In this document: positions 10,448-25,517 of the stretch, in pieces
Numbering within the stretch: the stretch's first letter is position 1
Layout: the number at the start of each line of letters is the position of its first letter
Origin: Halohasta litchfieldiae
GTDB taxonomy: Archaea; Halobacteriota; Halobacteria; Halobacteriales; Haloferacaceae
DNA: 64,000 bases
Assembly (NCBI RefSeq): GCF_002788215.1
Contig: NZ_CP024845.1
Span: forward strand, 3,162,001 to 3,226,000
Reading direction: 5' to 3'
Translations under genes and position numbers: made by a program
The notes under the pieces: generated by a model
What the model saw: the letters and a program-made list of their open reading frames with translations, nothing else
The model's database searches: none
What the model was told of the DNA's origin: nothing

Positions 10448-10935
10448 AACTCGTCGCCGTAACTGCCTGTCCGACCGGGATCGCACACAGCCAGATGGCT
10501 GCCGAAAACCTCCAGACGACTGCCGAAGAGCGTGGCCACGAGATCCACGTCGAAGTCCAGGGCGCGATGGGCACCGAAAACGAGATTCCGGATGACGTCC
10601 TCGCGGCGGCCGATGCGGTGATCATCGCCGCCGACACCTCGGTCCAGCAGAATCGGTTCGGCGACCACGTCGTCGTCAAGGCCAGCGTCAAAGACGGTGT
10701 CAACGACGCCGACGGCCTCATCGACGAGGCCATCGAGCGTGCTGGCGGTGAGACGGATGCTGAGGGCACTGAGACGAATATCGAAGACACTGAGGCAGAT
10801 ACCGAGGAGACGGCCGACACCGACGATTCGGGTACTGTCGACGACACGGCAGCCGAGTCGACGCCATCGGTCGATCCCGAGTCGACCGCGTCCGAGGGCG
10901 GCATTATGGCCCGGCTCAAGCGACTGTTTTCCTGA
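10444..10935 (+). CDS. ptfB: PTS fructose-specific enzyme IIB with acidic C-terminal tail
   Basis: The 163-residue protein has an EIIB-fructose domain in residues 1-100. The phosphocysteine is C9 in T-A-C-P-T-G-I-A-H-S. It passes phosphate to fructose during transport through PtfC. Residues 105-150 form a low-complexity Asp/Glu/Thr-rich linker ending in a basic A-R-L-K-R-L-F tail that could touch the membrane. The tail is longer than a plain EIIB domain and may be a halophilic adaptation. It overlaps ptsI by four bases and closes the PTS operon. Confidence 0.93.
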   Translation: MKLVAVTACPTGIAHSQMAAENLQTTAEERGHEIHVEVQGAMGTENEIPDDVLAAADAVIIAADTSVQQNRFGDHVVVKASVKDGVNDADGLIDEAIERAGGETDAEGTETNIEDTEADTEETADTDDSGTVDDTAAESTPSVDPESTASEGGIMARLKRLFS

Positions 10936-14079: not shown

Positions 14080-17000
14080 TTAGTCCGGGAGCCTCAGGCC
14101 GATCTGTTCACCAGAGGCATTTATTGGTGAATCGATATCACCGTTTTCGATAACTGCCGTGACTCCGTAGTCGCGGCCCTGATCAAGCCCCGAGAGTGTC
14201 CCGGTATACATCGTTGGGTTGGTAGTACTGGAGGTGTCGGCTCTCACTTGAGCCAACTCATCACGATTTTCGACGGCGATAAGCCGGAGGCTGTCGTCGC
14301 CGTCGGCTCCCAACACTTCGATAGTCGAATAGTAGAGCTCAGGATACCCCCCAACAGGGATCTCGCGTTCAGTATCGACGATATCGCCACCTTTGGGTTC
14401 GTCGTACACCACGATATCCGCAGTCGAGCTATTGGTACTGCGGCTTACTTCAACCCGGAACTGACCGGCTGGCGGATCGAACCGCTTGCTCGTGTAGACA
14501 TTGTTTGGAAGACGACTCGAATCCGTCGGACTCGACTGTTCATCATCGCGGAAAACCACTTCGAAGTCAGCACCCGACTCCCGTGTATCGTACACATAGC
14601 TGCGAGTTTTGTTAGCCTTCAGCGGGGTGTTGTCGTGGACCCAGAAGTTATCGTGGGCGTAGCCGTCGGGATCGCTGTAGAATCCGCCGTCAGCAACCAG
14701 CCCATCACTGTTGTTGGTTGCATTGCCATTGAAAATCCGTGATGGGAGATATCGAACGTAGAGGTCGACCAGTTGAAGCCCACCCATCTCAACGAGTTCA
14801 GCTTCGACGTCCGCTGATGTGTTCCCAGTACGAGTCGTGTCGACGGTTTCGACGACGGGGGGAGATGTCCGAAAGGTAATCGGATCGCCGGTGGCAGTGA
14901 CGGCTGGATCGGTGTCATCGTTTTTGGTCAACGCCGTGACCGAGTACGCTTCTTGATACTGGAGCCCGGTGATTTCATCCGTGTAGCTCCCCGACTCGGT
15001 TACAGTAGTTCCGGCTGTTTGCCCGTATCCATCACGGTTTTCGACACCGATGAGCCGAAGGCTGTCTTCGCCGTTCGATCCCAACACTTCGATGGTCGAA
15101 TAGTAGATCTCATCATAACTCTCGACCGAGATACCACGTTCCTCATCGATGATCTCGCCGCCTTCGGGTTCATTGTACACCACGAGATCCAGAGTCGAGC
15201 TATCGTTGCTGCGGTTCACTTCGACCCGGAACTCACCCTCCGGCGGATCGAACCGTTTGCTCGTGTGGACATTATTTGAAATACTACTTGAACCCGTTGG
15301 GCGCTGTTCGTCAGTGCGGAGAATAACTTCGAAGTCAGCACCCGAATCCCGTTTGTCGTAGACATACGTACGGTTTTCGCCCGGTTCCAGCAGTGTATTA
15401 TCATGAACCCAGTTGTTATCGTGGGCGTACCCGTCTGGATCGGTGTAGAATCCGCCGTCAGCGACCAGCCCATCATTGTTGTTGGTTGGATACCCATTGA
15501 AAATCCGCGATGGAACGTACTCGAAAAACAGGTCCGTTTGTTGAAAGTCACCCATCTTGATATTACTCTTGACTTCCGCTGATCGGGCACCAGTACGGGT
15601 CACGCTGTCGACGGTCTCGACAGTTGGGCCAGTAATGTTGAATGTGATTTGGTTGCCGGTCGAACTGATCTGCTGACCGCCAATAGACTGTTCTGCATAG
15701 ATCTCCAGTGCATACTCCCGGTTGGGTTGGATTCCAGTAATATATTGCTCATATGTCGTGTTAGTGTCCGTAGCACTATCTGCAGTCTTTACTTGACTCA
15801 ACTCATCACGGTTTTCGACGGCGGTGAGTCGAAGACTGTCGTCACCGAATGTTCCCGACACTTCAAAGCTTGAATAGTAGAGATCAGTATAACTCCCGAC
15901 CGAGATGTCGCGTTCGTCATCAACGATATCGCCTCCCTCGGGTTCATCGTACACCACGACATCCGCAGTCGAGCCATCGGTGCTGCGGCTCACTTCAACC
16001 CGGAACGTGGCGTCCGGTGGATCGAACCGCTCGCTCAGATGAACGTACTCCGGAGCATCAGCCGTGGGAATAGTCTGCTTGTCATCGCGGAAGACGAATT
16101 GGAAGTCAGCACCCGACTCCCGCTTGTCGTAGATATAGCTGCGATTTTCGCCCGGCTCCAGCGGGGTGTTGTCGTGAACCCAGTCGTTATCGTGGGCATA
16201 GCCGTCAGGATCGGTGTGGAACTCACCGTCAGCGACTAGCCCATCACTGTTGTTGAGTGAATCCCCATTAAAAATACGCGACGGGAGATATCGAAAGAAG
16301 AGGTCAACCTCCGGAAGACCACCGAGATCGACCAACTTTCCGTCGGCGTTGAGCGATGTCGCATCAGTGATATTCACACTTTTCGTGGCCACCTCCAGCG
16401 GCGGATCTGATTCGAGAACGATGACCTCCGTTGCCGCCGTATAGCCGTCGACCTCCGCGGTCACGTTCGTTGTTTCAGTGGGATCGGGGTCCAATCCAGT
16501 GATCGTCGTCTCTGGCTCATCGAAATCGAGCTTCGACTCGTCTTCGACAGTTATGTTCGCCTCATCGGTAACATTCAGGTCAACACCGGCTTCGAAGTCT
16601 TTGTCGACAGTATAGGTAGCGGGGGTTCCCTCTAGGACATAGGCAGGATCAGTCCGATTGGCAATTTCGAACAACAGTCGCTCGACGCGTGCGTTGATTC
16701 GGTGGGTCTCGCTGTAAACGACGCTGTTAGTCGGGTCGTGAACCACCAGTAACTCGACGGTGCCGTCGACCAAATCGAACTCCTGTGAGAGGCTAGTTCC
16801 CGGTTGGAACGGCTCGTCGAACGTCACCGCCTCGGCATCCACTGGCCGGATCGTCGCCTCGTCGGCAGCCACCAGCCGGATCGTCGTGGTGTTCGGATTC
16901 AACGTATTACCACCACGGTGTTCAAGCAACATATTGATCGGCGTGAATTCGGAGTCGAGATCCGCTATCGGCCCCTGCTCGATATCGGCCTGCCAGTCAC

Positions 17001-17094
17001 TCAGTACGACGGCCCCCGTGCTGGTGACCGTGAGCGCGATAACGGCGGTCAGCAGGATAACGCCGACACTCTCGCTTTGTCCACGGTCCATCAT
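14080..17094 (-). CDS. Large pilin-like surface protein with three tandem ~256-residue repeats
   Basis: With the start at the M-M-D-R-G-Q-S-E-S-V-G pair, the protein has 1004 residues. An earlier in-frame start is possible but the upstream part lacks protein character. Residues 4-30 resemble the archaeal type IV pilin N-terminus: R-G-Q-S-x-S-V-G then a hydrophobic I-L-L-T-A-V-I-A-L-T helix. Residues 31-234 form a beta-rich stalk. Three strongly similar repeats follow (about 235-488, 489-745 and 746-1004), each with Y-L/V-P-S-R-I-F-N-G, D-G-L-V-A-D-G, D-P-D-G-Y-A-H-D-N-x-W-V-H-D-N and R-F-D-P-P. Each is bounded by segments like fibronectin-III edges (T-V-E-T-V-D at the start, I-T-G-L-Q near the end). 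I do not recognise the inserted domain. It is probably extracellular and glycosylated, since N-x-S/T sites are frequent. The ATG overlaps the upstream short pilin-like gene. Confidence 0.72.
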   Translation of the reverse strand: MMDRGQSESVGVILLTAVIALTVTSTGAVVLSDWQADIEQGPIADLDSEFTPINMLLEHRGGNTLNPNTTTIRLVAADEATIRPVDAEAVTFDEPFQPGTSLSQEFDLVDGTVELLVVHDPTNSVVYSETHRINARVERLLFEIANRTDPAYVLEGTPATYTVDKDFEAGVDLNVTDEANITVEDESKLDFDEPETTITGLDPDPTETTNVTAEVDGYTAATEVIVLESDPPLEVATKSVNITDATSLNADGKLVDLGGLPEVDLFFRYLPSRIFNGDSLNNSDGLVADGEFHTDPDGYAHDNDWVHDNTPLEPGENRSYIYDKRESGADFQFVFRDDKQTIPTADAPEYVHLSERFDPPDATFRVEVSRSTDGSTADVVVYDEPEGGDIVDDERDISVGSYTDLYYSSFEVSGTFGDDSLRLTAVENRDELSQVKTADSATDTNTTYEQYITGIQPNREYALEIYAEQSIGGQQISSTGNQITFNITGPTVETVDSVTRTGARSAEVKSNIKMGDFQQTDLFFEYVPSRIFNGYPTNNNDGLVADGGFYTDPDGYAHDNNWVHDNTLLEPGENRTYVYDKRDSGADFEVILRTDEQRPTGSSSISNNVHTSKRFDPPEGEFRVEVNRSNDSSTLDLVVYNEPEGGEIIDEERGISVESYDEIYYSTIEVLGSNGEDSLRLIGVENRDGYGQTAGTTVTESGSYTDEITGLQYQEAYSVTALTKNDDTDPAVTATGDPITFRTSPPVVETVDTTRTGNTSADVEAELVEMGGLQLVDLYVRYLPSRIFNGNATNNSDGLVADGGFYSDPDGYAHDNFWVHDNTPLKANKTRSYVYDTRESGADFEVVFRDDEQSSPTDSSRLPNNVYTSKRFDPPAGQFRVEVSRSTNSSTADIVVYDEPKGGDIVDTEREIPVGGYPELYYSTIEVLGADGDDSLRLIAVENRDELAQVRADTSSTTNPTMYTGTLSGLDQGRDYGVTAVIENGDIDSPINASGEQIGLRLPD
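14083..14859 (-). repeat. Repeat 3 of the surface protein (residues about 746-1004)
   Basis: It contains Y-L-P-S-R-I-F-N-G at 782-790 and ends the protein. It is closest to repeats 1 and 2 over the D-P-D-G-Y-A-H-D-N block. Confidence 0.8.
14860..15630 (-). repeat. Repeat 2 of the surface protein (residues about 489-745)
   Basis: It contains Y-V-P-S-R-I-F-N-G at 526-534, offset 257 residues from repeat 1. It opens with V-E-T-V-D-S-V-T-R-T-G. Confidence 0.8.
15631..16392 (-). repeat. Repeat 1 of the surface protein (residues about 235-488)
   Basis: It contains Y-L-P-S-R-I-F-N-G at 269-277. DNA similarity to the other copies is high enough to see by eye, pointing to duplication with little divergence. 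Confidence 0.8.
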
Positions 17095-17426
17095 GACCAG
17101 CCCCTCGTCACGTTGATGGGTTCGGACGGTTCCGTACGTCCGACATCTTCGGCTGGCGGATAACTGCACAACAGTCGGTCGGTGTCGTCGGTGCCTAACG
17201 TGTTCGTGGCCGTCCGCGGCTCCCCGTCGACGACCGTATCGAAGACAGCGGTGTGGCATTCCACCAGCTCGGCGGCGACCGCTTGGCTGTGTCCGAACTC
17301 GGCCTGTCCGTTTTCCGCCGGGACGCCCTGTGTCTGATACCGAGTACACGCGAGCACAATGCATCCAAACAACAGCATGGCTCCGACCTGCAGCGACTGC
17401 CCTCGTCGGTCGGCGCCGAATATCAT
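17091..17426 (-). CDS. Short pilin-like/DUF-type secreted protein, possibly truncated
   Basis: Starting at M-I-F-G-A-D-R-R-G-Q-S gives about 111 residues. R-G-Q-S-L-Q-V-G-A-M-L-L-F-G followed by a hydrophobic helix resembles the N-terminal module of a haloarchaeal secreted family in which the text V-P-A-E-N-G-Q-A-E-F-G-H-S-Q follows the helix. In relatives I recall, several hundred residues come after this module. Here the protein stops at T-R-G-W-S and the TGA overlaps the ATG of the 1004-residue gene. It may be a genuine minor pilin coupled to the large gene, or the stump of a longer gene. Family recollection is from memory. Confidence 0.55.
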   Translation of the reverse strand: MIFGADRRGQSLQVGAMLLFGCIVLACTRYQTQGVPAENGQAEFGHSQAVAAELVECHTAVFDTVVDGEPRTATNTLGTDDTDRLLCSYPPAEDVGRTEPSEPINVTRGWS

Positions 17427-18593: not shown

Positions 18594-18777
18594 ACGTCAC
18601 CCTCGGCACAGCCATGTAAAATGACTTCTGAATGGCGTCGCTGCTGTGCTGGGATGTATGAGACGATCTGTCATATAACCTGCCAGTTTTGGTATGTATC
18701 TGGCTTAGATATAGTTGTAATTCTACTGTAGTCTGGTAATAAACGATACTGTCAACCGGGTGCTACAATCTATCTGG

Positions 18778-19524
18778 ATGGTAGACAATACGAATAGCGG
18801 CAGTCAACAGTCCAATGCAGCAACCAACAGACGGCGGTTTCTCGGCGGCGCTGCTGGCGCACTCGGAGTCGTCGGCGTTGGCGGCGCGTTCACGATGCCA
18901 GTCGCTGCGGGCGACGATCCAGCAACCACGGGCGATGACGAACCCCCAACAGCCGTCGACAGCGATTTCGATGACGACGTCGACATCCTCAACTACGCCC
19001 TCACACTCGAATACCTCGAAGCCGAGTTCTACGAGCAGGCTCTCGACAACATCGACCAGGATGACTTGCTCGATAACAAGGTCGTCAAACACGTCGGCGG
19101 CGATGCTGTCGACTCCTATGGCGACGAGATTCTCGACTACGTGTACGAAGAAATAGAGACGATTCAGGAACACGAAGAGATCCACGCCGAAACCCTCGAG
19201 TCGGTCATCACTGATCTCGGTGGCGACCCGGTCGACGAGCCGGAGTTCGACTTCGGCGAGGCGGTCGAAGAGCCGATGGCGTTCATCGAGACCGCCGCAG
19301 CGCTCGAAGATACGGGTGTCGCAGCCTACGCAGGCGCGGCCACCGAAATCGAGAACGCGGACCTCATCGCTCCCGCACTGAGTATCCACAGTGTCGAAGG
19401 TCGACACGCATCGTTCGTCCGCGTGCTGGGCGGGCAGAGTGGCTTCCCCAACGCCTTCGATTACCCACTCTCCCGGGCAGATGTCGAGGAACTCGCTGGG
19501 CAGTTCATCGTCGAAGACGACTAA
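18778..19524 (+). CDS. Tat-exported ferritin-like domain protein
   Basis: From the ATG at 18778 the protein has 248 residues and a twin-arginine signal, N-R-R-R-F-L-G-G at 17-24, followed by a hydrophobic Ala/Gly segment and a likely cleavage near A-A-G. A GTG at 18760 would only add six residues. The mature part starts with an acidic linker and then has a four-helix ferritin-like pattern: L-N-Y-A-L-T-L-E-Y-L-E-A-E-F-Y, E-H-E-E-I-H and V-E-G-R-H-A-S. These E-x-x-H motifs fit the Ferritin_2 family. The role, perhaps iron or oxidative-stress handling outside the cell, is not established. Confidence 0.85.
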   Translation: MVDNTNSGSQQSNAATNRRRFLGGAAGALGVVGVGGAFTMPVAAGDDPATTGDDEPPTAVDSDFDDDVDILNYALTLEYLEAEFYEQALDNIDQDDLLDNKVVKHVGGDAVDSYGDEILDYVYEEIETIQEHEEIHAETLESVITDLGGDPVDEPEFDFGEAVEEPMAFIETAAALEDTGVAAYAGAATEIENADLIAPALSIHSVEGRHASFVRVLGGQSGFPNAFDYPLSRADVEELAGQFIVEDD

Positions 19525-23411: not shown

Positions 23412-25517
23412 ATGTATGAGCTCAGATCAGTTGGCGTGATCGTACTCGCAACGTTGGTACTGCTGTCGACGGGACTGGCAGGCGTCGCCGTCGCGGCCGA
23501 CGCCCCCTCGCCCGCAGTGTTGCAGGCCGACAGTGGCGAAATCACCGTCGACGAGGAGACCGACGACAGCGAGAGCGACGAACCCGAAGCCGACGACCCC
23601 GGCGACTCCTTCGAGATCACTGACCTCGACGCGCCGGAGACAGTCGCAGTCGGCGAGACAGTGACAGTAACCGCGACGGTAACTAATCCCAACGCATTCG
23701 AGACGAACCAGTCGGTCGAGTTCCGGCTCGACGGCGATGTGGTCGACCGACAGACCCTCGAAATCGAGGGCCAAGCCGACCGAACCATCTCGATTGGGGT
23801 CGACTCCGAGGAAATCGGTGTCGGAAACTTCATTCACGGCTTGCTGACGACCGACCGCGGCGAGCTGGCGACCCTCGAAATCATCCCATTTGCCGAGGTC
23901 GACTTCGATGATCAAGAGACCGACGGCGAGTCACTTGTCGTCGACAGCGCGACGCTCTCGGAGGGCGGCTTCGTCGCGATCTACGACGATGATGGCGACC
24001 TCGTCGGCGTCTCGGAGCATCTCGATGAGGGAGACCACGAAGATATCGAGGTCGAACTGTTCGACGAGGACCGCGACATCGAATTCGACGGCGATGAGCT
24101 CGACGACGGCGACTCCGACCTGACTGCCGTTGTGCATCTCGATTCCGATGACGACGAGGCGTTCGTCTTCGCTGAAGACGACAGCCTCGACCAGCCGTAT
24201 GTCGACGTCGACGGTGAACCGATCAGCGACAGCGCAACCGTGACGGTGCCAGTCGAAGAGGATGAGGCAGACGACGAAGACGAAGCAGATGACGAAGCCG
24301 ACGATGAGGACGAAGCTGATGGAGAGGACGGAGCAGACGGTGAGGACGGAACAGACGGCGAAGACGAAGCAGACGGCGAAGACGAATCGGGCGACGAGGA
24401 TGAGGCGAACAACGATGTAGACAGTGACGACGCAGCCGCAACGATCACAGCCGTCGTCGATTTTAGGGATCAGGAGACCGACAGCGAGTCAGTTGTCGTC
24501 GACTCCGCCGTTGTTCCGGTCGATGGCTACGTGGCCATCTACGAGGGCGAGGACATCATCGGTGTCTCCGACTATCTCGACGCGGGCGAGGAGGCCAGAG
24601 ATATACAGATCGACCTGTTCGACGTTCGCAGCGCTTCATTCGACCGCGAGCGCCTGACAGAAGACACCACGCTAACGGCAGTCCTCCACGAGGAAACCAG
24701 CGGCAACGAGAAGTTCGATCACGTCAGAAACGACATTCGCGACGGGCCAGTTGTCGACGACGAGGGCACCCCCGTTTCTGACACAGCCGAAATCACGGTT
24801 CCAGCACTCGAAACGGAGTCCGAACAGAGCGATGCTGAAGAGAGCGATTCCGAAGAGAGCGATTCCGAAGAGGACGATATCGAAAACAACGGTGAGACGG
24901 AATCCGCGTCCGATGATGATGACGATAGCGACGACACGGAACTGATCGAAGACGCGGAGTCAGACACCGACGACAATGTTGATTCTGACGAGGAAGACAG
25001 TGACGCGTCCAGCGACGACTCACCGGACGACAACGATGCCGAATCAGACAGTATGGAAGACGACTCCGAGGGGGAACCGGTCGACGAAAGCAACGAGACG
25101 GATGCTGAAGAAGACGAATCCGACAACGAGAGCGACGAGACGGATGAAGAAGATGACGGTGACGGCGTAGACGACGAAGACGAGGTAGACGACGAAGACG
25201 AGGTAGACGACGAAGACGAGGTAGATGACGAAGACGAAGCTGACGACGAGGATGAAGCAGATGACGAAGATGAATCCGACGACGAAGACGAGGCAGATGA
25301 CGAGGACGAAGCAGACGACGAAGACGAGGCAGATGACGAGGACGAAGCAGACGACGAAGACGAGGCAGATGACGAGGACGAAGCAGACGACGAAGACGGA
25401 GCTGACGACGAAGACGAGGCAGATGACGAAGATGAAGCAGATGACGAGGACGAAGCAGACGACGAAGACGAGGCAGACGACGAAGATGAAGCAGATGACG
25501 AAGATGAATCCGAGTAA
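23412..25517 (+). CDS. Secreted, extremely acidic protein with two DUF7282-like domains and a D-D-E-D-E-A repeat tail
   Basis: The 701-residue protein starts with a Sec signal (hydrophobic V-G-V-I-V-L-A-T-L-V-L-L, cleavage likely after A-V-A-A). A CARDB-like beta domain follows (V-T-V-T-A-T-V-T-N near 78-86). Two related domains each open with D-x-Q-E-T-D and contain V-V-D-S-A, G-F/Y-V-A-I-Y and G-V-S-x-x-L-D; I associate these with DUF7282. They are separated and followed by Asp/Glu low-complexity linkers. The last ~115 residues are 19 hexads of D-D-E-D-E-A/V/S/G. No transmembrane or sortase-like anchor is visible at the C-terminus. A calcium- or surface-binding role is only a guess. Confidence 0.8.
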   Translation: MYELRSVGVIVLATLVLLSTGLAGVAVAADAPSPAVLQADSGEITVDEETDDSESDEPEADDPGDSFEITDLDAPETVAVGETVTVTATVTNPNAFETNQSVEFRLDGDVVDRQTLEIEGQADRTISIGVDSEEIGVGNFIHGLLTTDRGELATLEIIPFAEVDFDDQETDGESLVVDSATLSEGGFVAIYDDDGDLVGVSEHLDEGDHEDIEVELFDEDRDIEFDGDELDDGDSDLTAVVHLDSDDDEAFVFAEDDSLDQPYVDVDGEPISDSATVTVPVEEDEADDEDEADDEADDEDEADGEDGADGEDGTDGEDEADGEDESGDEDEANNDVDSDDAAATITAVVDFRDQETDSESVVVDSAVVPVDGYVAIYEGEDIIGVSDYLDAGEEARDIQIDLFDVRSASFDRERLTEDTTLTAVLHEETSGNEKFDHVRNDIRDGPVVDDEGTPVSDTAEITVPALETESEQSDAEESDSEESDSEEDDIENNGETESASDDDDDSDDTELIEDAESDTDDNVDSDEEDSDASSDDSPDDNDAESDSMEDDSEGEPVDESNETDAEEDESDNESDETDEEDDGDGVDDEDEVDDEDEVDDEDEVDDEDEADDEDEADDEDESDDEDEADDEDEADDEDEADDEDEADDEDEADDEDEADDEDGADDEDEADDEDEADDEDEADDEDEADDEDEADDEDESE
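25170..25511 (+). repeat. 18-bp minisatellite, 19 units, encoding the acidic tail
   Basis: Nineteen consecutive 18-bp units of the form GAY-GAC-GAR-GAY-GAR-GYN code for the tail. Two unit types alternate, making an exact 36-bp higher-order repeat three times in a row at 25278-25385, which suggests recent expansion by slippage or unequal exchange. Confidence 0.92.

Follow-up and report, generated by a model that had tools for sequence, protein, structure and literature searches.

Modular type IV pilins, in which adhesive domains are grafted onto a pilin, are described as a widespread strategy in bacteria. The concept was established with PilB of Streptococcus sanguinis, and bulky cargo does not keep bacterial modular pilins out of pili (PMC8179133), while S. 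sanguinis PilC combines pilin, Ig-like and concanavalin A (ConA)-like lectin modules and binds glycans (PMC9934059). In archaea, the PilA pilins of Haloferax volcanii are processed by PibD and used in adhesion (PMC4371748), and a limited search covering parts of three papers on archaeal pili (PMC4371748, PMC4858521, PMC4419858) found no cargo-bearing pilins of the kind presented here.

The protein in question, P0001, is a 1004-residue modular pilin with three repeats from Halohasta litchfieldiae, a haloarchaeon whose genome is a single contig of 3.33 Mb. Its gene occupies positions 14080-17094 of the window, i.e. the whole 64,000-nucleotide stretch of DNA that was analysed, and it lies on the minus strand, as do all of its features given below. 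Sequence and hydropathy place a class III-type leader (R-G-Q-S, with cleavage predicted between G and Q in MMDRGQSES) and a hydrophobic helix at residues 1-32 (16999-17094); the hydrophobic segment, residues 7-32, is the only one in the protein by hydropathy and is N-terminal. The archaeal pilin family Pilin_N (PF07790) matches residues 7-74 with 31.2 bits against a curated cut-off of 25.2, and the pilin module as a whole spans residues 1-129 (16708-17094). A linker follows (residues 130-232, 16399-16707), which is Ig-like by eye only and has no Pfam match above cut-off. After residue 232, domains that are not pilus-specific are grafted on, in the form of three repeats, each a fibronectin type III (fn3)-like domain with an insert: repeat 1 (residues 233-489, 15628-16398), repeat 2 (residues 490-744, 14863-15627) and repeat 3 (residues 745-1004, 14083-14862).

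No pilus assembly genes adjoin the locus, which lies between a gene for a class I W/Y-type tRNA synthetase and, on the opposite side, genes for eIF1A, a RIO kinase and a KH-domain protein, and a scan of the locus for promoters and terminators stayed at chance level. A match to the prepilin peptidase family Peptidase_A24 and four matches to the secretion ATPase family T2SSE are found elsewhere in the genome. One of these ATPase loci (L085, G000:C1:806703-807518) has two TAG stops inside and is therefore perhaps a broken gene. The window also encodes a member of the Ferritin_2 family whose leader is of the Tat type (18760-19521) and a protein of 701 residues (23412-25517) in which two stretches of DUF7282 are accompanied by a long acidic tail, the latter encoded by approximately 19 copies of an 18-bp repeat.

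The first-pass annotation had described two overlapping pilin-like genes. The overlap is as stated: a short gene on the same strand, P0002 (17091-17426, 111 aa), shares an ATGA with P0001 at 17094-17091, and its product likewise starts with R-G-Q-S and one hydrophobic stretch (residues 9-30). Both proteins have this kind of start, but they are not equals, P0002 being without the middle of the gene found at the same position in H. salina GSL13 (G001), which has 382 codons including the stop. Approximately the first 90 codons and the last few of this counterpart are retained, and the internal deletion in P0002 leaves both ends of the gene in place, along with its overlap with P0001. In the other relative compared, H. 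litorea R30 (G003), no such partner gene was found upstream of the pilin-like gene. Full-length partners of 534 and 857 aa, with Big_1 and PKD domains, occur in other haloarchaea, and a partner gene with an RxQSxQVGA-type start lies upstream of several large haloarchaeal pilins. As the H. salina gene is long and full-length partners exist in other haloarchaea, the long form is probably ancestral and P0002 a shortened remnant, working or not.

Three tandem repeats of about 256 residues had been reported in P0001, and three are present; at 255-260 residues each and 53-60% identity over the whole repeat (65-71% in DNA), their likeness is not due to chance. These values do not bear out the description of the repeats as near-identical, nor is a recent duplication supported, the fn3 edges being 27-41% and the inserts 67-71% identical between repeats. 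The reading frame is open throughout all three. The edges of the repeat profile (positions ~2-66 and ~198-253) match fn3-type repeats that run without interruption in many haloarchaeal proteins, whereas the middle ~155 residues have no match to them; judged by this comparison, each repeat is an fn3-like domain interrupted by an insert of ~155 residues, at 15814-16284, 15040-15513 and 14269-14745 in repeats 1, 2 and 3 respectively. The fibronectin-III-like character that had been assigned to the edges finds support in haloarchaeal fn3 arrays, while fibronectin chains were matched weakly and the fn3 Pfam profile scored 16.2 bits on P0001, below its cut-off of 25. Repeat number differs between species, with three in P0001, four in H. 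salina and two in H. litorea. The H. litorea gene (L017) appears to change frame towards its end (~10850-10920), where fn3 sequence continues in another frame; this could be a draft-assembly error.

Each insert contains the block D-P-D-G-Y-A-H-D-N-x-W-V-H-D-N, correctly noticed before, which is letter-exact in the three repeats except at x. In its more general form, P-x-G-x-x-H-x5-H-x-N (16168-16209, 15397-15438 and 14629-14670 in repeats 1, 2 and 3), the P, G, H, H and N are invariant in 15 of 15 inserts spanning three families, and the motif histidine pairs account for six of the 12 histidines of P0001. AlphaFold2 modelled repeat 3, with 14 sequences, at pLDDT 87 and pTM 0.83, and the insert alone less well (pLDDT 78). 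Nearly all Foldseek matches of the insert in the PDB belong to the ConA-like superfamily, including legume lectins, galectins, beta-glucanases and SPRY domains, and are weak (TM at most 0.47). A lectin-type (ConA-like) fold is probable from these structure predictions. Apart from Pilin_N, nothing scored above cut-off in searches of Pfam, NCBIfam, PHROGs and PDB sequences, so by sequence the repeat does not fall in a well-studied domain, and the insert had no match to Laminin_G_3 either by Pfam or by profile comparison with a Laminin_G_3 pair. The insert is a previously unnamed, probably carbohydrate-binding domain.

Three Halohasta genomes and two genomes of other haloarchaeal families were found to carry the insert; in searches of a class sample and of two families its profile matched no further genome, and weak matches elsewhere are to the fn3 edges. 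In one of the other families, a 2141-residue protein (L048) has five insert copies alternating with plain fn3, and a metagenome-assembled genome of a third family encodes a further insert-bearing protein (L018). The anchor is a pilin start in Halohasta and a membrane segment in L048 (C-terminal) and L018 (N-terminal), and carriage on three kinds of anchor suggests that the insert is an extracellular module that moves between proteins. From its patchy distribution we infer horizontal transfer. In L018 (6316-8628), approximately 140 residues of further sequence interrupt the insert itself, making a domain within a domain. A viral or plasmid origin was considered and rejected: no relatives of P0001 were found in phages or plasmids, and the inserts tested were absent from viral contigs. 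The L048 protein gave weak plasmid matches, which may lie in either its insert or its fn3 part.

Proteins neighbouring the locus are 89-96% identical between H. litchfieldiae and H. salina, compared with 66% for the pilin module and an average of 35% for the inserts, and a tree groups the copies by species. In every Halohasta protein, conservation is higher in the insert than in the fn3 scaffold. In H. salina, DNA identity is 92% between inserts R3 and R4 and 88% between inserts R1 and R2, against 60% and 52% for the corresponding fn3 edges, and the same holds at 4-fold sites, where 8 of 68 differ in the R3/R4 insert versus 12 of 21 in the edges (p 6e-5), and 17 of 67 versus 13 of 23 in R1/R2 (p 0.007). 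Because the inserts are alike and the edges are not, including at 4-fold sites, homogenisation in H. salina is limited to the insert. In P0001, too, the inserts resemble one another more than the edges do, in protein as in DNA, but the contrast at 4-fold sites lacks significance and constraint could account for the likeness. L048 presents the reverse, with fn3 edges that are 64-83% identical bearing inserts of two types (53-59% identical), as if cassettes had been exchanged. Alike modules within a protein combined with great difference between sister species are as expected of a fast-changing adhesive protein.

Within the order, the pilin-module profile has matches in 315 of 392 genomes, a wide count in which ordinary pilins are included; among the best 150 matches, 59 are in open frames of at least 400 aa. 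Pilin_N is among the Pfam matches of 17 of the 19 large proteins scanned (one just below cut-off). Many of the 19 carry PKD, Big_7, CARDB, malectin or PA14 cargo, and two (L132, L134) carry Laminin_G_3, although the set was chosen for length and its cargo share is no estimate of frequency. Pilin_N is joined with PKD and malectin in one genome (G023), and with a bactofilin-like domain in another (G017). Large haloarchaeal pilins with varied cargo (L128-L147, L019, L020, L132, L134) look common, and the data suggest that haloarchaea often use the modular-pilin strategy, with lectin-type cargo.

The interpretation preferred here, with slightly more belief than doubt, is that P0001 works in the manner of Streptococcus PilC, as a modular type IV pilin whose new, lectin-like cargo makes it an adhesin. 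Its plan would be a pilin module, a linker and three fn3-like domains, each with a ConA-like domain in the middle. The prepilin peptidase would recognise the pilin start and cleave the leader, after which the hydrophobic helix would sit in the pilus, where the protein would probably be a subunit of low copy number or of the tip, and the three lectin-like modules would be held outside the cell. The conserved H-x5-H-x-N site, putatively the binding site, would then bind a ligand, most likely a glycan of neighbouring cells, of viruses, or of the cell's own S-layer or extracellular polymer, and the three insert copies would give avidity. Within the gene, inserts would be swapped and made alike without the scaffold taking part, and between species they diverge fast. 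The repeat-bearing filament or adhesin proposed in the first-pass annotation gains from the Pilin_N match, the leader, the peptidase and ATPases and the relatives with carbohydrate-binding cargo, but its pair of intact pilin genes is not supported.

Several points weigh against this interpretation, namely the weak fold matches, the lack of profile support, the lack of adjoining pilus genes and a partner gene cut down in this genome and missing from H. litorea. The position away from assembly genes, together with the large size of P0001 and the presence of the same insert on non-pilin membrane-anchored proteins (L048, L018), would suit a surface protein with a pilin-type anchor that stays outside filaments, its helix in the membrane, as a cell-envelope adhesin or S-layer-associated protein; this is rather unlikely, given that the P0001 start belongs to an archaeal pilin family and that bulky cargo does enter pili in bacterial modular pilins (PMC8179133). 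Nor need the repeats have a ligand, since fn3 and Ig arrays are common spacers, and both the shortened P0002 and the apparent H. litorea frameshift could be signs of decay. However, repeats that were only structural modules, in a long stalk kept alike by recombination alone or in a decaying protein, would hardly have an insert better kept than its scaffold in each Halohasta protein, an H-x5-H-x-N block invariant across three families and all three P0001 repeats open, which makes this improbable. Beta-glucanases among the fold matches raise the further idea of a ConA-like or GH16-type enzyme cutting polysaccharide, but E-x-D-x(1,2)-E is absent from the P0001 inserts and not conserved in their relatives, and such an activity is very doubtful.

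Building on the modular pilin adhesin, a broader and distinctly tentative proposal is that a haloarchaeal pilin chassis, often with an RxQSxQVGA partner, displays interchangeable carbohydrate-binding cargo, the Halohasta cargo being an undescribed lectin-type cassette swapped between fn3 frames and diverging through recognition of cells or viruses. If true, this would amount to a variable recognition system on archaeal pili. The nested insert lends itself to testing how a recognition module can evolve apart from its scaffold, and its evolution is relevant to the choice of partners, surfaces or viruses by haloarchaea.

Compared with known systems, P0001 shares the fn3-like edges of its repeats with haloarchaeal tandem fn3 surface proteins, in which fn3 is uninterrupted, unlike in P0001. 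It has the same type of N-terminal family as the PilA pilins of H. volcanii, but at 1004 aa it differs from PilA-type pilins, those found here being ~140-200 aa and without cargo. The haloarchaeal Pilin_N proteins with Laminin_G_3 (L132, L134) have the same type of pilin start and cargo of the ConA-like superfamily, whereas the P0001 insert lies inside fn3 and does not match Laminin_G_3. Unlike S. sanguinis PilC, whose glycan binding is established, P0001 has a putative ligand and a cargo whose probable similarity is one of predicted fold rather than of sequence; furthermore, its pilin family is archaeal and its lectin-like domain is nested within fn3, three times over. Nevertheless, P0001 resembles PilC and PilB in its basic design, a pilin start with grafted domains, which are adhesive in the two streptococcal proteins.
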